From a virus, in IMG/VR virus record IMGVR_UViG_3300046780_000427, positions 1-64,000 of that record: a stretch of DNA of 64,000 bases. One strand, 5' to 3'. This document shows positions 12,860 to 62,057 of the stretch, piece after piece. Below the pieces are notes generated by a model, which searched no databases, had not been told where the DNA came from, and saw only the letters and a program-made list of their open reading frames with translations. Position 1 is the stretch's first letter. Each line of letters begins with the position of its first letter. A program made the translations under genes and the position numbers.

Positions 12860-12877
12860 GGAGAGAGGGACCAAGCC

Positions 12878-48245: not shown

Positions 48246-49502
48246 ATGTCAACCATCACCAACGAGGTCAACGCCCAGTTCGACACCCAGCGCGCCTCAC
48301 AGATCGCCGCCTACGTCAACAACCAGGCCACCCAGGCTGACCGGATCGCCGCCGCAGAACGCAGGGTCGCCTCCGGTGAACTGTCCGACATGGGCGGCGG
48401 GGCCTTCCGGGTCATGACCGGATGGGACCGCGGGGAAGTGTTCAACTTCGGCGCCAACGGGCTCCTCATGCCGCAGGCCAATCTGGACCTCGCCGAGGAC
48501 GGCAAGGCCCTCGGGTATTTCGCCGAGCCGGAGTGGCACGGTCTCGGCACCGTCATCCTCGGCGGCACCACCGACATCCCGCAGATCCTCCAGGTGTCCG
48601 GCGGGGACTACTACGTGGACAAGCGGATCTCCCGTGCGTTCGATGACCAGGGCAACCTGCTGGAGAACTCCGAGGGGTTCCAGACCGTCCGGCACGGCGG
48701 CGACCGGCCGGCGGCGATCCTCGGGCAGGTCGGTTCCCGGTGGACCCCGATTCAGAATGAGGACGGGTTCGGGTTCCTGGCCGAGCTGATCGGCCGCAAG
48801 GAGATCCTGCCCGTGTCCGCGTTCCCGCTGTGGAACGGGCGGGTCTACGTGATGGCGCTGCGCCTCCCGGAGGACATCGTCCTAGACGCGCAGGGTGTCG
48901 GGGACATCATCCGGCCCTACATCATGGCCCGCAACTCCTTCGACGGGCGGACCCCGTTCCAGTGTGTCGTGACCCCGTGGCGGCCCCGCTGCTCCAACAC
49001 TGAGCGGCTGGCCCTCCGGGATGCGATCACCACGTGGAAGGTCCCGCACACCACCAACGCGCTCAAGCGCATCGATGAGGCCCGGCAGACCCTCGGCCTG
49101 ACCCTCAACTATTACTCGGAGTTCGCCGCCGAGGAGGAGGCCCTGATCCACACCGACCTGACCACCCGTCAGATCGACACCCTGCTCTCGGAACTGGACG
49201 CCGAGCTGTGGCCGGAGACGACCAAGAAGGACGGCAAGGCCGAGCCGACGAAGCGGACCGAGAAGATCCGCACGCTCCGGTCTGAGGGCCTGCGTGAGAC
49301 CATCACCGAGGAGGGCGGCCAGGTCGGCCGGAACGCCTACGCGGTCGAGCGGGCCTACACCTCCTGGCTGGACCACTCCGCTCCCCGCCGCATGGCTGGC
49401 CTGCCCGATGGTGCCGCGAGGGCAACGGCGATCCTGGAGGGCTTCGAGGACGGTCGTAAGGACACCGTCCACAAGCGGCTGATGACCCTGGTCACCCGCT
49501 AA
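48246..49502 (+). CDS. DUF932 (phage/plasmid-like) protein
   Basis: This 418-residue protein has the DUF932 pattern: WHGLGTVILGGTTDIPQILQ, YYVDKRISRAFDDQGN, AILGQVGSRWTPIQNEDGF, and PYIMARNSFDGRTPFQCVVT then VTPWRPRCSNT. The family is widespread in phages and plasmids and is often found with replication or recombination genes, but its function is not established. The gene has its own promoter and a strong terminator, so it is a single-gene transcription unit. Confidence 0.8.
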   Translation: MSTITNEVNAQFDTQRASQIAAYVNNQATQADRIAAAERRVASGELSDMGGGAFRVMTGWDRGEVFNFGANGLLMPQANLDLAEDGKALGYFAEPEWHGLGTVILGGTTDIPQILQVSGGDYYVDKRISRAFDDQGNLLENSEGFQTVRHGGDRPAAILGQVGSRWTPIQNEDGFGFLAELIGRKEILPVSAFPLWNGRVYVMALRLPEDIVLDAQGVGDIIRPYIMARNSFDGRTPFQCVVTPWRPRCSNTERLALRDAITTWKVPHTTNALKRIDEARQTLGLTLNYYSEFAAEEEALIHTDLTTRQIDTLLSELDAELWPETTKKDGKAEPTKRTEKIRTLRSEGLRETITEEGGQVGRNAYAVERAYTSWLDHSAPRRMAGLPDGAARATAILEGFEDGRKDTVHKRLMTLVTR

Positions 49503-52635: not shown

Positions 52636-53205
52636 GTGACCGACACCCAGCCTGAGGCAGCGTTCCGGCTAGGCCCCCAGCAGTTCGACCCCGCTATACC
52701 TGTTGAGTCGATCAGCGAGCACCCCCGCAACCCGAACGAGGGCGACATCGGGGCCATCCATGAGTCGATGGGGCAGCACGGGTTCGTCGGGGCGATCATG
52801 GTTCAGCGGTCCACCGGGTATGTCCTGGACGGCAACCACACCTACCGGACTGCTGTCGCGAAGGGTGCCCTGACCCTGCCCGGGTTCTGGCTTGACGTGG
52901 ATGATGATGAGGCCCTGCGGATCCTCATGGATATCAACCACACCGCCCGCCTCGGCCGCGACGACCTGGCCCTGGCCTCCGCGCTCCTGCTGGATTTGCG
53001 CGGCCGCGGGGACCTGCCCGCGTCCTACTCCGATGACGACCTGCAGCAGATGCTTGATGACCTGTCCGGGCCGGCGGCGCCGGATGAGTTCCCCGAGTAC
53101 GGCGACGACATCAGCACCGAGCACGAATGCCCCCGCTGCGGGTACGCCTTTAGCGGTGGCACTAAGCGGCCTGTGGGCGCTGAGGACGCCGGCGCGGGCC
53201 CATGA
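52636..53205 (+). CDS. ParB-like domain protein with zinc ribbon
   Basis: This 189-residue protein has a ParB/Srx-type domain: IPVESISEHPRNPNEGDIGA, IHESMGQHGFVGAIMVQRST and GYVLDGNHTYRTAVAKGALT, then DDDEALRILMDINHTARLGR. The C-terminus has an HECPRCGYAF Cys pair. Proteins of this type often sit next to phage DNA methyltransferases and may position or control them. It overlaps the methyltransferase gene by four bases and is the first gene of the modification operon. Confidence 0.8.
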   Translation: MTDTQPEAAFRLGPQQFDPAIPVESISEHPRNPNEGDIGAIHESMGQHGFVGAIMVQRSTGYVLDGNHTYRTAVAKGALTLPGFWLDVDDDEALRILMDINHTARLGRDDLALASALLLDLRGRGDLPASYSDDDLQQMLDDLSGPAAPDEFPEYGDDISTEHECPRCGYAFSGGTKRPVGAEDAGAGP

Positions 53206-54698
53206 CCCGGGTGCTCCTGCGCCTGCACCACCACGGCCAGGATTACCGTTGGGCTGATGTGACCGACCGGCCGATGCCGACGATCAACACTATCGGGATC
53301 AGCGACCTCGGCAGCACAGGCCCGGATGGCATCATGATCGCGCCCACCCTGGGAGGCCCCGTGCCCGTAGTCGACAAACCGCCGTACCGGGTCCCGGGCA
53401 TGGGAGAGATCCGGGCCCTGGAGTGGAACGGGTTTACCGCCGCGTCCACGTTCTCGGGGTGCGGCGGCGGGTGCCTGGGCCTGGAGATGGCCGGCTACCG
53501 GATCGGGTGGGCAAGCGAGTTCATCCCCGCCGCCGCTGACACCTACGCCGCGAACCACCCTGGCGTGCACCTGGACACCAGGGACATCCGGCAGGTTGAC
53601 CCGCAGGAGGTCCTGGACATCATGGGCCTGAAGGTGGGGGAGCTGGCCCTGCTCGAGGGGTCGCCGCCGTGCGCCGCGTTCTCCACCGCCGGGGTCAGGT
53701 CGGCGGGGTGGAATCAGCCGCGGAAATATTCGGACACGGTGCAGCGCACTGATGACCTGTTCGGGGAGTACTGCCGGATGATTGAGGGCCTGCGCCCGGC
53801 CGTGTTCACCGCCGAGAACGTCTCCGGCTTGGTCAAGGGTGTGGCGAAGGGGTATTTCAAGGAGATCCTGGCCCGGATGAAAGCCGCCGGCTACCAGGTG
53901 CAGGCCCGACTGTTGGACGCTTCGTGGCTGGGGGTGCCGCAGGCGAGGCAGCGGATCTTTTTCGTCGGCGTCCGCGAGGACCTGGGTATGGCCCCGGCCT
54001 ACCCCAAGCCGCTCCCCTACCGGTATTCGGTGCGGGATGCGTTGCCGCACATCCTCGCCCAGGGCGCCAATACCGAGTTCGGTCAGGCAGCCTGGGAGGA
54101 CGGGTCCCGGCCCTCGGGGAGCCTGGGCGCGGACCCGTCCACCGGTAATGGGCTGTCGCCGCCTGGGCATGTGCTCGAAGTCGCGGAGATCATCACCCAG
54201 CGGGGGCCCAAGGAAGAGCCGCAGTACTCCGCTGGGGACATCACTGACCGGCCCGCGCCGGCGGTCTTGGAGCGGAACGGGAACTATCAGGTCGCCGGCC
54301 CGACTGGGGTCACGCATGACCCGGAGACCGGCGCGGACATCACCATCGGCCGGTATGCCATCGGGAAGGAATGGCTGCGCCTGGCCGAGGGGCAGAAGTC
54401 GGGCCGTTACCAGCAGCTATGGCGTCCCGATGATGGCCGGCCCGTGCCGACGCTGACCGCCCGCGCCGGCGCCGAGGGCGTCGCCGGGGTGATGCACTGG
54501 GCGGAATGCCGCAAGCTCACGTTGGGGGAGCTGCGGGCCCTGTGCGGGTTCCCCCCGGACTTTGTCCTCACCGGGTCCTATAAGCAACGGTGGGAACGGC
54601 TCGGCCGGGCGGTGCCGCCGGTGATGATGGCGCACCTGGCCGCAGCGATCCGGGACCAGATCCTGGTCCCGCTCCGCGCGGATGGGAGGATCGGGTAA
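53202..54698 (+). CDS. Cytosine-C5 DNA methyltransferase with motif X Asn to Arg (predicted carboxymethyltransferase)
   Basis: This 498-residue C5 enzyme has motif I TFSGCGGGCLGLEMAGY (83-99), motif IV EGSPPCAAFS with nucleophile Cys157, motif VI ENVSGL (205-210), and motif VIII QARQRIFFVG (247-256). In motif X the nearly invariant Asn of G-N-x-V-P-P is replaced: the sequence is LGRAVPP with Arg469 (codon 54606-54608). That Asn lies near the transferred methyl group of SAM. In engineered M.MpeI, Lys or Arg at this position permits use of carboxy-SAM. With the CmoA-like gene in the same operon, I predict transfer of carboxymethyl to cytosine. DxxRPxPT-type segments recur at about 20, 345 and 408. 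Confidence 0.85.
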   Translation: MTRVLLRLHHHGQDYRWADVTDRPMPTINTIGISDLGSTGPDGIMIAPTLGGPVPVVDKPPYRVPGMGEIRALEWNGFTAASTFSGCGGGCLGLEMAGYRIGWASEFIPAAADTYAANHPGVHLDTRDIRQVDPQEVLDIMGLKVGELALLEGSPPCAAFSTAGVRSAGWNQPRKYSDTVQRTDDLFGEYCRMIEGLRPAVFTAENVSGLVKGVAKGYFKEILARMKAAGYQVQARLLDASWLGVPQARQRIFFVGVREDLGMAPAYPKPLPYRYSVRDALPHILAQGANTEFGQAAWEDGSRPSGSLGADPSTGNGLSPPGHVLEVAEIITQRGPKEEPQYSAGDITDRPAPAVLERNGNYQVAGPTGVTHDPETGADITIGRYAIGKEWLRLAEGQKSGRYQQLWRPDDGRPVPTLTARAGAEGVAGVMHWAECRKLTLGELRALCGFPPDFVLTGSYKQRWERLGRAVPPVMMAHLAAAIRDQILVPLRADGRIG

Positions 54699-56099
54699 GT
54701 GTGCGGCATCCTCGCCGCGGCCGCCCAGGTGGACCTGTGGCTGGCCCTCGGCAGCCTGGAGCACCGCGGCCCCGACGCGCAGGCGTGGCAGGAGCATGCC
54801 GGGGTCTCACTCGGGCAGACCCGGCTGGCTATCCAGGACCTCGCCCCGGCCGGCGGCGGCCTGTTCACGGCGGGCCCGGTGGTCTGCGCCTACAACGGGG
54901 AGCTGTTCAACGGCCCGGAGGTCCGGAGCCTGGTCGAGGCTGCCCGCCCGGGCTACGTGTGGCACACCCACGGGGACACGGAGACCGTCACCGCCGCCCT
55001 CGGCGTCCTGCACCCGCAGGACGCCCTCGCCGCCTTCGACGGCATGTTCGCCGTCGCCTGGGCTGACACCCGGCACCCGGGGGTCCTGTTCTGCGCGAGG
55101 GACAGGTTCGGGGAGATCCCCCTGCACATCCACCGGCACATCCCGGCGCTGGTCGCCTCAGAGATCAAAGCGTTCGCCGCGCTTGGCCGCAGGTGCGGCG
55201 ACGCGGTGATGGAGATCCCCCCGGCGTCGGTGTGCTCGATCCGGCATGCCGGCGCGCAGGTCACCGTCTCCCGGTACCTCCCTGCCCTGCCACCGGTCCC
55301 CGCACCTCCCACGGACCCGCCCGCGGAACTGCGCCGCCGGATCCGCGCCGGGGTGACCGCCCGGCTGATCAGCGACGCCCCGATATGCACGCTGCTGTCC
55401 GGTGGGCTGGACTCCGCGGTGATCGCCTACGAGCTGGGCCTCCTGGTCCCGGGCCTGGTGGCCTACACCGCGGTCATGGACAAGCACTCCCCCGACCTCC
55501 GCGCCGCTAGGGTCTGCGCGGAGCATCTTGGGGTGGAGCTGCGTGAGGTCACCATCGACCCGCCGTCCGCCGATGACCTGGCGAACGTGGTGCGGCAGAT
55601 CGAGCAGCCGCACAAGGCGCAGGTGGAGATCGGGTGGCCGTGCCTGGCACTGGCCAGGCAGATCCGTGAGGACGGGTTCAAGGTCACCTACTCCGGGGAA
55701 GGCGCCGATGAACTGTGGGCCTCCTACGGGTTCGCCTACCACGGCGTCAAGCAGCACGGCTGGTTTGGGTACCGGTTGCGGTTGATCACCGAGCAGCACC
55801 GGAAGAATTTCCCGAGGGTCAATAAGGCGTTCATGGCCCACGCGGTGGAGGCACGGTTGCCGTGGCTGGACCCCGGTGTCGTCGGCGTGGCCCTCGCCCT
55901 CCCGGTGGGCCTGGTCCGCACCCGTGGCCGGCTCAAAGGCATCGTGGAGGACGCCTACCACGACGTACTGCCGGGCAAGATCCTGGCCCGGTCCAAACTG
56001 GCATTCCAGGACGGCCTGGGGATGAAGGAAGCCGCCGCCTCGGTGGCGGTCAAACCAAGGGAGTTCTACGGTGTCGAGTACCGCCGGGCATATAGCTGA
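54699..56099 (+). CDS. AsnB-like class II amidotransferase/ATP-dependent amide synthase
   Basis: This 466-residue protein begins GTG-Cys2, the glutaminase nucleophile. It has family positions EHRGPDAQAW, YNGELFN, GDTETV and ARDRFGEIPL. The synthase half has the pyrophosphatase loop LLSGGLDSAVIA (234-239 core), YSGEGADELWASYG and AVEARLPWLDP. It should take ammonia from glutamine, activate a carboxylate with ATP and make an amide. Free aspartate is the usual substrate. Here the operon suggests the carboxyl group on carboxymethylcytosine, giving carbamoylmethylcytosine (inference). It starts immediately after the methyltransferase stop. Confidence 0.82.
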   Translation: MCGILAAAAQVDLWLALGSLEHRGPDAQAWQEHAGVSLGQTRLAIQDLAPAGGGLFTAGPVVCAYNGELFNGPEVRSLVEAARPGYVWHTHGDTETVTAALGVLHPQDALAAFDGMFAVAWADTRHPGVLFCARDRFGEIPLHIHRHIPALVASEIKAFAALGRRCGDAVMEIPPASVCSIRHAGAQVTVSRYLPALPPVPAPPTDPPAELRRRIRAGVTARLISDAPICTLLSGGLDSAVIAYELGLLVPGLVAYTAVMDKHSPDLRAARVCAEHLGVELREVTIDPPSADDLANVVRQIEQPHKAQVEIGWPCLALARQIREDGFKVTYSGEGADELWASYGFAYHGVKQHGWFGYRLRLITEQHRKNFPRVNKAFMAHAVEARLPWLDPGVVGVALALPVGLVRTRGRLKGIVEDAYHDVLPGKILARSKLAFQDGLGMKEAAASVAVKPREFYGVEYRRAYS

Positions 56100-56865
56100 A
56101 CCTGCCAGGGTCGAGGGACTGCGGGACCTGGCCCCCGATCCCAGGTCGGACCTGGCTGGCCGGTTCCCCGGCGGCGGGTGGCAGTTCACCTCCGAAGTCG
56201 CAGCGGTGTTCGATGATCATGTGCGCGCGTCGGTGCCGTTCTACGATGCGATCCAGTCGCTGATCGCGGAGCTGGCGGACTGGCTCCTCCCCGCGGGGGG
56301 CCTCCTGGCCGACCTGGGTTGCTCGACGGGGAACACTGCCGCGGCGATCCTCATGCGGCAGCCCGACCGGGGCCTGCGCGTGCACCTGTACGACGAGTCG
56401 GTGCCGATGCTGGCCAAGGCCCGGCCCATGCTCGAGGGGCTGGCACCGGGCCGCGTGGCAGCGACGATCGGCCGGCTCCCCGGTGAGGGACTGGAACACG
56501 CCGGCGCGGACCTGACGGTGGCCGCGTTCCTGCTCCAGTTCCTGCCCTGGGCGGACAGGTTCCGGCTGCTGTGCATGGCCCGGGCGGCGGCTGCGGAGAC
56601 GGGTGCGCTGATCCTCGCGGAGAAGACCCGCCCCGCTGACTCCCGGTGGGCGGAGATCGCCGCTGAGGTCTCCCACGATGTGAAGGAATCCAACGGGATC
56701 ACCGCCGGGGAGATCCGGGCCAAGGCCCGGTCGCTGCGCGGCGTCCTGCTCCCCGGCCGCCTGGACTATGTGATGGCACAGGCCGAGGAGGCCGGGTGGT
56801 GTTCCCCGGAGGTCCTGTTCCGGTGGCATTCGTGGGCAGTGATCGGCGCGTTCGCTACGCCCTGA
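56071..56865 (+). CDS. CmoA-like carboxy-SAM synthase
   Basis: This 264-residue class I SAM fold follows CmoA along its length: WQFTSEVAAVFDDHVRASVP, FYDAIQSLIAELADWLLPAG, DLGCSTGN (81-88), FLLQFLPWADRFRLL, LILAEKTRPADSRWAEI, SHDVKESNGITAGEIRAKAR, and a C-terminal WCSPEVLFRWHSWAVIGAFA. Arg220-Ser221 aligns with the CmoA Arg-Ser (Arg199 in E. coli) that contacts the cofactor carboxylate. CmoA makes carboxy-SAM from SAM and prephenate for tRNA wobble uridines. No CmoB gene is present here, so the cofactor is presumably for the DNA enzyme. It overlaps the AsnB-like gene by 29 bases. Confidence 0.75.
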   Translation: MSSTAGHIAEPARVEGLRDLAPDPRSDLAGRFPGGGWQFTSEVAAVFDDHVRASVPFYDAIQSLIAELADWLLPAGGLLADLGCSTGNTAAAILMRQPDRGLRVHLYDESVPMLAKARPMLEGLAPGRVAATIGRLPGEGLEHAGADLTVAAFLLQFLPWADRFRLLCMARAAAAETGALILAEKTRPADSRWAEIAAEVSHDVKESNGITAGEIRAKARSLRGVLLPGRLDYVMAQAEEAGWCSPEVLFRWHSWAVIGAFATP

Positions 56866-56890
56866 GGCTGGACACCCTCCCGCTAACCCC

Positions 56891-56899
56891 TGCTACTGT
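56891..56899 (+). promoter_or_regulatory. Early extended -10 promoter (TGC-TACTGT)
   Basis: It is followed by TCACAGGTAAGCA and GGAGAGAGGGA (56920-56930) before ATG 56939. No -35 is evident. Confidence 0.7.
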
Positions 56900-56938
56900 T
56901 CACAGGTAAGCATTCCCCTGGAGAGAGGGACACCTGAA

Positions 56939-57379: not shown

Positions 57380-57458
57380 CCCTGTGACTGCCCGCCCGAG
57401 CCGGCCTGCCCCGGTCCGGGCGGGTTCATGTTCCCTATGGGCAACTGTCCCTAACCCC

Positions 57459-57467
57459 TGCTACTGT
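57459..57467 (+). promoter_or_regulatory. Early extended -10 promoter (TGC-TACTGT)
   Basis: It is followed by TGACACGTAAGCAA and GGAGAGAGGGAA (57485-57496) before ATG 57501. Confidence 0.7.
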
Positions 57468-57500
57468 TGACACGTAAGCAACCCGGAGAGAGGGAACCCG

Positions 57501-57716
57501 ATGACTGACATGACCGAATGGAACAGGGCCTACACCGAGGCCAACACCGCCGCCCTGACCAGCTACAAGGCATATTCGCTGCCTGACCTCGCCGCCGCGA
57601 AGCGGGCCCTGTGCGACACCTCCCAGCTGGTCAACTACCCGGACCTGCCCTCACAGGGACGCCTCGACGGCACCATCGCCGCCGTTGACACCCTGATGGA
57701 GAGGATCGCCCGATGA
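57501..57716 (+). CDS. Small helical protein, unknown
   Basis: This 71-residue helical protein (YTEANTAALTSYKAYSLPDL, LDGTIAAVDTLMERIAR) is coupled by ATGA to the next gene. Confidence 0.55.
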   Translation: MTDMTEWNRAYTEANTAALTSYKAYSLPDLAAAKRALCDTSQLVNYPDLPSQGRLDGTIAAVDTLMERIAR

Positions 57717-59760: not shown

Positions 59761-59787
59761 ACCCGGCTGGTCCTCCCGCCTAACCCC

Positions 59788-59796
59788 TGCAATGAT
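59788..59796 (+). promoter_or_regulatory. Early extended -10 promoter (TGC-AATGAT)
   Basis: It is followed by TGACATGTAAACAG and GGAGAGAGGGA (59819-59829). Confidence 0.7.
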
Positions 59797-59830
59797 TGAC
59801 ATGTAAACAGCACCCTGGAGAGAGGGACCC

Positions 59831-60064
59831 ATGTTCACTAGCGCTGACGGGACATGGCGGGTGCGGCCCGTCGAGCTGGACCAGCCGCTCCGCCCCTGTG
59901 CGATGGCGTCCCTGCCCGGTGCCCCCGCCGAGCACCTGTGCGTCACCCGGCACGGGTTCGTCGTCGCGAACGTTCCGGCCCCGCGGCTGCCCTCGGGGCT
60001 CCTGGACCTGGCGGCCCTTGCCGCCGTGCTCCCGTTCCCCCTGGCTGAGCTGAGGCCCGCATGA
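59831..60064 (+). CDS. Early protein, unknown
   Basis: This 77-residue protein has a beta first half (TWRVRPVELDQPLRPCAMAS, HGFVVANVPAPRLP) and a Leu-rich helical end (GLLDLAALAAVLPFPLAEL). It overlaps the next gene by ATGA. Confidence 0.55.
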   Translation: MFTSADGTWRVRPVELDQPLRPCAMASLPGAPAEHLCVTRHGFVVANVPAPRLPSGLLDLAALAAVLPFPLAELRPA

Positions 60065-60591: not shown

Positions 60592-60629
60592 TCCGGTGCG
60601 GTAAATGCTGGTTACCCTCCCGGCACCCC

Positions 60630-60638
60630 TGCAATAAT
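60630..60638 (+). promoter_or_regulatory. Early extended -10 promoter (TGC-AATAAT)
   Basis: It is followed by GGACACGTAAGCAA and TTGGAGAGAGGGAA (60659-60670). Confidence 0.72.
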
Positions 60639-60672
60639 GGACACGTAAGCAACCCTTTGGAGAGAGGGAACC

Positions 60673-61140
60673 ATGAACATCACGCAGACTGCCGGCACCG
60701 AGATCGCCGCCTACGCCCCCTCGGGTGTCCTGGCCCTGGTCCCCGACCTGACCCCGGTCCGGGTTGCCCCGGCCAAACCGGTCAAGCACTGCCAGGCCCC
60801 CGCCTGCGAGACGGTCATCGGCTCCCACGGTGACACCCCGAGGGCCAGGCTGGGCCGGCGGTTCTGCTCCGACACCTGCCAGCGCGCCGGCCGCCGCCAC
60901 GAGCGCCACACTGAGACCGCCGACTACACCCGGATGGCTACCAGGGTGATCCGGAAGCTGGGGCAGCGGGTCGGCACCGACTTCGACCAGCTCGGGGAGC
61001 TGGCCGAGATCGCCGCCGCCGCCGACCAGGCGATGAGGGTTGCCGTCTCTGTGATGCGCGAGCGGGGCCTGTCCTGGGCTCTGATCGGGGACCAGCTCGG
61101 CATCACCCGGCAGGCCGCGCAGCAGCGCTTCGGCCGGTAA
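60673..61140 (+). CDS. DNA-binding protein: zinc finger plus HTH
   Basis: This 155-residue protein has residues 40-79 with CQAPACETV...RRFCSDTCQRAG (C2C2 zinc site). The C-terminal end GLSWALIGDQLGITRQAAQQ is a clear helix-turn-helix of the sigma-region-4/LuxR type. Between them is a helical dimerisation-like region (LGELAEIAAAADQAMRVAVS). It has its own promoter with palindrome S10 upstream, which makes it the most attractive single candidate for the protein that binds the palindromes (inference). Confidence 0.7.
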   Translation: MNITQTAGTEIAAYAPSGVLALVPDLTPVRVAPAKPVKHCQAPACETVIGSHGDTPRARLGRRFCSDTCQRAGRRHERHTETADYTRMATRVIRKLGQRVGTDFDQLGELAEIAAAADQAMRVAVSVMRERGLSWALIGDQLGITRQAAQQRFGR

Positions 61141-61893: not shown

Positions 61894-62010
61894 TTCACCC
61901 GAGCGCACCGCCCTCCCGGCCGCGCCCGATTCCCCCGGATGGCTGCCATGACCGAGCACGGCCCATTCCTGGAGGTCACCCGCCGCCCCTAGCCGGCTGT
62001 CACCCGCCCC

Positions 62011-62019
62011 TGCTACTGT
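62011..62019 (+). promoter_or_regulatory. Early extended -10 promoter (TGC-TACTGT)
   Basis: It is followed by TTACACGTAAAGCA and TTGGAGAGAGGGAA (62038-62051). The gap 61894-62057 otherwise holds only a 17-codon frame with no ribosome site. Confidence 0.72.
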
Positions 62020-62057
62020 TTACACGTAAAGCACCCTTTGGAGAGAGGGAACCTGAC

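Follow-up and report, generated by a model that had tools for sequence, protein, structure and literature searches.

An operon of a tailed phage predicted to carboxymethylate DNA cytosine and probably to amidate the product

In the IMG/VR virus record IMGVR_UViG_3300046780_000427 (72058 bases), of which bases 1-64000 were analyzed and are called the window here, four genes follow one another in the same direction on the + strand at 52636-56865, encoding in order a ParB-like protein, a C5-cytosine methyltransferase, a ligase resembling the asparagine synthetase AsnB, and a protein resembling E. coli CmoA. An earlier note, made from the sequence alone, had proposed a DNA modification operon at this place, and its account of the position and coupling of the four open reading frames holds throughout: the ParB-like and methyltransferase genes overlap by 4 nucleotides (ATGA), the methyltransferase and AsnB-like genes abut, and the AsnB-like and CmoA-like genes overlap by 29 nucleotides, provided that the annotated GTG start of the latter is correct. 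Because base composition in the window is 70% GC, long open reading frames carry little weight, and homology decides instead. The presence in the window of terminase, portal, major head protein and tape measure genes identifies a tailed phage; when named phages were searched for near-identical matches to the window's first 25 kb, none turned up.

Table 1. Genes and predicted functional residues of the operon (window coordinates)
Feature	Position	Strand	Basis
ParB-like protein, likely helper of the methyltransferase in DNA binding or targeting, 189 aa	52636..53205	+	PHROG match
CmoX, predicted DNA cytosine C5-carboxymethyltransferase, 498 aa	53202..54698	+	PDB 8YF3 match, SPPC, motif X Arg
Catalytic Cys157 codon (SPPC)	53670..53672	+	aligns with HhaI C81 / SpCmoX C98
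Arg469 codon (GRAVPP), predicted carboxy-SAM carboxylate contact	54606..54608	+	aligns with SpCmoX Arg350
CmoY, glutamine-hydrolyzing type, predicted 5-carboxymethylcytosine amidotransferase, 466 aa	54699..56099	+	Asn_synthase, GATase_7
K306-A-Q-V-E310, putative acyl-substrate (5-carboxymethylcytosine) motif	55614..55628	+	common to SpCmoY
CmoA-like carboxy-SAM synthase, at most 264 aa depending on its true start	56071..56865	+	4GEK, TIGR00740
CmoA Arg223 codon, candidate stand-in for E. coli Arg199	56737..56739	+	clade-invariant, present in SpCmoA

The methyltransferase matches Pfam DNA_methylase (1.4e-49), and its best match in the PDB is 8YF3 (8.9e-56), the structure of SpCmoX from Synechococcus phage S-B43 with carboxy-S-adenosylmethionine (carboxy-SAM); the second-best match, M.HaeIII (5.5e-22), is more than 30 orders of magnitude worse. 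In the 8YF3 crystal structure carboxy-SAM is contacted by F25, E47, F48, D69, C98 and R350, and Arg350 contacts its carboxymethyl group (PMC12783734). All of these residues are kept in the window enzyme, as F84, E106, F107, D128, C157 and R469, and both elements by which the same study searched for CmoX, an SPPC motif (S154-P-P-C157) and the motif X Arg (R469), are present. The catalytic residues of HhaI are likewise kept, including the ENV glutamate (E205) and the motif VIII arginines. As the earlier note had seen, Arg469 takes the place of the near-invariant Asn of motif X (GRAVPP); HhaI N304 aligns with it. In the engineered M.MpeI N374K, a Lys for this Asn permits use of carboxy-SAM, whereas the window enzyme is natural and has Arg. 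There is thus strong support for regarding the window methyltransferase as a CmoX, which would select carboxy-SAM by means of Arg469. The enzyme also has an N-terminal extension (window 53202-53370) with the sequence DVTDRPMPTI, and a similar stretch, DITDRPAPAV, stands in the target-recognition region; an extension of this kind is found in relatives too, for example at locus L150.

Naturally occurring 5-carboxymethylcytosine was described in a December 2025 paper, which showed that a phage CmoA makes carboxy-SAM, that CmoX, which in the case of SpCmoX accepts carboxy-SAM only, carboxymethylates cytosine C5, and that CmoY ligates an amine (glycine) to the product; 5615 CmoX candidates were listed there, frequently with ParB neighbors (PMC12783734). 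The window operon belongs to this known system, at which the earlier note had apparently arrived independently. Common to the S-B43 and window loci are a homologous CmoA, a CmoX with the selectivity Arg, the SPPC motif and the cofactor contacts, an AsnB-family ligase alongside, and the same proposed logic. The two differ in gene order (cmoA-cmoY-cmoX in S-B43; ParB-cmoX-cmoY-cmoA in the window), no ParB is listed adjoining the S-B43 genes, and identity over matched parts is about 41-44% for CmoX, 23% for CmoA and 24% for CmoY. Much closer is Streptomyces phage TurkishDelight, whose genes 122-125 (MW291017) have the same four-gene order and products 53% (CmoX), 55% (CmoY) and 60% (CmoA) identical to those of the window; they are annotated as ParB-like, methyltransferase, glutamine amidotransferase and methyltransferase, and an extra ParB-like gene lies upstream.

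The CmoA-like protein finds as its best PDB matches E. coli CmoA (4GEK, 1.1e-21, and 4IWN) and H. influenzae YecO, the next unrelated match being at 4.9e-4, and it is 51-62% identical to CmoA-like products of operons of the same kind. Against TIGR00740 it scores 106.7 bits (1.5e-30), below the cut-off of 193.3; SpCmoA, a proven enzyme, scores 115.6 and falls below it too, so this cut-off does not define phage CmoA. In E. coli, CmoA acts with CmoB toward cmo5U in tRNA; the window protein is homologous, and the acceptor would here be DNA cytosine.

Scans of viral contigs with the methyltransferase only gave 110 non-redundant loci, among which a CmoA-like gene adjoins 85 of 87 methyltransferases with Arg in motif X and none of those with Asn (0/22) or Asp (0/1). 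A scan with the ligase only gave 44 clusters: 40 have both CmoX and CmoA, 2 only CmoA and 2 only CmoX. Gene order varies between phage groups (P-X-Y-A, A-Y-X, Y-X-A; P being ParB) while the gene set is kept. The Arg-type C5 methyltransferases beside CmoA and AsnB homologues for which the earlier note had suggested searching exist in other phages, and its central claim, that a natural C5-carboxymethyltransferase uses carboxy-SAM supplied by a phage CmoA, has strong support from this co-occurrence and from homology to the proven CmoX and CmoA. The Asn-type sister group (loci L150, L183, L188, L198 and L203-L256) consists of ParB-linked phage C5 methyltransferases and forms a natural control set, near whose methyltransferases neither CmoA nor CmoY was ever found. 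In Erwinia phage pEa_SNUABM_3 a CmoA-like gene (L202:4253-5023) and an Arg-type C5 methyltransferase gene with a GRICV motif X (L201:2986-5115) are separated by about 20 kb; the two genes thus need not adjoin.

The operon is also found in Streptomyces and Nonomuraea genomes. In four operon-carrying actinomycete genomes no CmoB was found, and in three of the four the CmoA-like gene of the operon is the sole one (the E. coli control was positive in both searches); with hosts that have no CmoB and mostly no other CmoA, the phage itself would have to supply the cofactor. Nonomuraea fuscirosea, whose genome is without CmoB, has a second CmoA-like gene outside the operon (G006:C16:35334-36035).

The ligase matches Pfam Asn_synthase (1.2e-39) and GATase_7 (6.7e-20), and its best PDB match is E. 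coli AsnB (1CT9, 1.8e-34). It combines a class II glutaminase domain with N-terminal Cys and an AsnB-type ATP-pyrophosphatase domain, and the motifs that the earlier note had called complete are indeed all found (C2, R42, N66, D93 and SGGLDS); AsnB residues E348 and K449 are also retained. Among the 68 glutaminase-type ligases of CmoX loci, R42 and D93 occur in 68 and C2 and N66 in 67. Its score against TIGR01536, 222.8 bits, is under the asparagine synthase cut-off of 267.1, and this score together with a K-A-Q-V-E stretch replacing Thr-Thr-x-Arg places it outside asparagine synthase B. The Thr-Thr-x-Arg stretch of AsnB helps to bind aspartate. Where E. coli AsnB has V-T-T-I-R the window ligase has K306-A-Q-V-E310, a stretch that reads K-A/S-Q-x-E in all 68 glutaminase-type ligases and K-T-x-x-E in SpCmoY and most short ligases; BLASTP pairs K306 and E310 with K98 and E102 of SpCmoY. 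The K-x-x-x-E common to the window ligase and SpCmoY suggests a common acyl substrate, 5-carboxymethylcytosine. Glutaminase domains of class II amidotransferases normally feed ammonia to a second site, and since the glutaminase residues are intact, the nucleophile is likely to be ammonia and the product 5-carbamoylmethylcytosine; amidation of 5-carboxymethylcytosine by the AsnB-like enzyme, as the earlier note proposed, is thus likely on these grounds. For such ligases a scan of viral contigs with the single ligase sequence gave nothing, and an alignment-based scan gave 80 loci. At locus L031 an apparent CmoX-CmoY fusion in a single open frame was dropped in favor of an indel or frameshift, because beyond GRAVPP the conserved C-terminal part of CmoX is missing, and the CmoY portion begins anew with a Met-Cys of its own.

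The proposed mechanism has three steps. The CmoA-like protein would turn SAM and prephenate into carboxy-SAM; CmoX would flip out the cytosine, Cys157 attacking C6, and move the carboxymethyl group from carboxy-SAM to C5, with Arg469 holding the carboxylate and thereby selecting carboxy-SAM over SAM; finally, CmoY would adenylate the new carboxylate, and glutamine-derived ammonia from its N-terminal domain would yield the amide, 5-carbamoylmethylcytosine, the ParB-like protein acting as a DNA-side accessory. That the whole operon makes a hypermodified cytosine in this manner is given a probability of roughly three in four. The first two steps, which have been shown biochemically for homologues (PMC12783734), would very probably proceed as described; ammonia-dependent amidation, which is read from the anatomy of the ligase, is probable. 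Somewhat better than even is the expectation that the DNA of the window phage and of phages such as TurkishDelight contains the primary-amide base 5-carbamoylmethylcytosine, made by a glutamine-dependent amidotransferase acting on DNA and not on a free amino acid. A search of the open-access literature, whose coverage is incomplete, found no report of 5-carbamoylmethylcytosine in DNA. The modification would plausibly protect phage DNA from restriction, since 5-carboxymethylcytosine blocks HhaI (PMC12783734).

Several observations weigh against this scheme. Two Arg-type loci in the methyltransferase scans have no nearby CmoA. On a CmoX tree from whose alignment the motif X columns had been left out, Arg and Asn types separate by one change, so that the contingency table does not hold 100 independent tests and the Fisher value for Arg/Asn versus CmoA (4.5e-21) overstates the association. 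The presence of CmoY changes 29 times on the same tree, which makes the third step optional in the family, with carboxymethylation the core and the ligase an accessory; in the close relatives L004, L009 and L010, CmoX is followed directly by CmoA without a ligase. For the published ligase cluster with a glutaminase domain, the use of ammonia was predicted, and soluble protein was not obtained (PMC12783734). The remaining points concern the CmoA-like protein and are taken up below.

The explanation that best survives beside the proposed one, although unlikely, is that CmoA and CmoX act as described but the ligase adds another amine or uses another substrate, so that the final base is not 5-carbamoylmethylcytosine. 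Consistent with it, the sole characterized CmoY adds glycine, and the ligase family is diverse, with clusters of differing active-site residues (PMC12783734); the window ligase, as noted, is also below the asparagine synthase cut-off. However, that characterized enzyme, SpCmoY of S-B43 (271 aa), has no glutaminase domain, whereas the window ligase has one whose residues are intact in 67-68 of 68 relatives and which, by the established behavior of its class, would supply ammonia. The A0A7T0Q3R0 cluster, the second largest in PMC12783734, resembles the window ligase in its glutaminase architecture and in having ammonia as predicted donor, and is known from prediction only.

Far less probable is the alternative of a CmoA-like protein that acts as an ordinary SAM methyltransferase and is unable to make carboxy-SAM, the host supplying the cofactor or the product being another one. 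Arg199 of E. coli CmoA, which forms the carboxylate salt bridge (PMC3663124), aligns without gaps with Ala219 of the window protein, and fold comparison of the predicted model ranks CysG (Z 24.4) above CmoA (Z 22.5). Fold comparison as proof of CmoA identity was accordingly dropped, other class I methyltransferases matching at least as well, and the identity rests on sequence and context. The residue that the earlier note had named as the carboxylate contact, Arg220 of an Arg-Ser pair, is the wrong one: it aligns with Ser200 of E. coli CmoA and is Ser at locus L012 and Lys in SpCmoA. A better candidate for the contact is Arg223, which lies four residues past the Arg199 column, at E. coli Glu203, and is invariant in the CmoA clade of the window. 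SpCmoA, which is proven to make carboxy-SAM, has Glu at the Arg199 column and Arg at the Arg223 column, a charge swap, and its TIGR00740 score is like that of the window protein; this, with the absence of CmoB and the scarcity of other CmoA in the operon-carrying actinomycetes, argues against an ordinary methyltransferase. Of 127 CmoX-associated CmoAs, 26 have Arg199 and 44 an Arg at the 203 column, and most of the remainder have a KELSLxGVQR-type sequence. Arg199 is thus absent from most phage CmoAs, and an Arg stands four residues downstream (as in SpCmoA and in the window protein, at 56725-56739) or further (KELSLxGVQR types). The model of the window protein has a mean predicted local distance difference test (pLDDT) score of 79, and of about 75 around these residues, where it is too uncertain for geometry.

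Least probable of all is an ordinary methyltransferase that makes 5-methylcytosine, its motif X Arg being incidental and its neighbors serving other purposes, for although the enzyme passes the general C5-methyltransferase model TIGR00675 (153.7 bits) and has Asn-type relatives that also go with this ParB partner, its best match by far is the carboxy-SAM-only SpCmoX, and CmoA stands beside Arg-type and never beside Asn-type relatives.

The product of the first gene matches PHROG 723 clearly (1.1e-20) and Pfam ParB_N weakly (0.046). A ParB gene adjoins the methyltransferase in 98 of 130 Arg-type and 21 of 22 Asn-type relatives, which ties ParB to the enzyme group and not to carboxymethylation; the protein likely assists the methyltransferase in binding DNA or in targeting.

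A second partner of CmoA appears in phages without the C5 enzyme. Gordonia phage Evaa has a CmoA 48% identical to that of the window, and no C5 methyltransferase was found anywhere in its genome, nor in the L107 and L113 records. Its gp2 (L002:702-2237) joins a ParB domain and a class I methyltransferase in one protein and belongs to phrog_5475, of unknown function; the family also includes L261-L297, L298:1032-2624 in Aeromonas phage HJ05 and L299:4932-6488 in Pseudomonas phage SM1. A scan that used gp2 relatives as query, blind to CmoA, gave 31 clusters, 30 of which have a CmoA-like gene nearby; the lone cluster without one ends 337 bases past the gene. Most of these CmoA-like neighbors are divergent. 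Those in SM1 and HJ05 match phrog_4752, as SpCmoA does, and the SM1 protein has YecO/CmoA as its best PDB match (2.1e-16). In the model of a gp2 relative (pLDDT 89) the ParB domain is recognized at Z 11.6 and 1.7 A, and the methyltransferase domain is nearest METTL6 (Z 13.6, root-mean-square deviation 3.2 A over 188 residues). By association, the phrog_5475 fusions are candidates for a second, non-C5 carboxy-SAM-using DNA-modification enzyme; the published study found no N6 or N4 carboxymethyltransferase candidates with CmoA (PMC12783734). The occurrence of CmoA beside a ParB-methyltransferase fusion in phages without a C5 enzyme may be newer than the main finding.

Elsewhere in the window, a protein of the TIGR03299 phage/plasmid-like family (168.7 bits) is encoded upstream of the operon at 48249-49502. 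An intergenic element, roughly CCCCTGCTACTGTTNACACGTAAGCA...GGAGAGAGGGA, is repeated directly before start codons, with copies at 56883-56936, 57451-57504, 59780-59833, 60622-60675 and 62003-62056; GGAGAGAGGGA also occurs at 12860, 48229, 49573, 58633, 58967 and others. Searching for the repeat with a strict two-part pattern gave nothing, but the core alone did match, at 14 sites with at most one mismatch versus 1.8 expected. The element resembles a promoter combined with a ribosome-binding repeat at gene starts.

The interest of the operon lies in the amide product, in the residue-level predictions and in the availability of an isolated phage for testing them. The amide was also predicted for the same ligase type in PMC12783734; a glutamine-dependent DNA amidotransferase, if true, would be an unusual enzyme. 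The predictions single out R469 of CmoX, R223 (not R220) of CmoA and K306/E310 of CmoY, and TurkishDelight, which carries the same operon and has been isolated, offers a direct way to look for the predicted amide base. The published search was filtered for Arg, and the co-occurrence data supplement it with Asn-type controls. With this operon, carboxy-SAM DNA modification reaches phages of Actinobacteria, in whose hosts the carboxy-SAM tRNA pathway appears to be missing.

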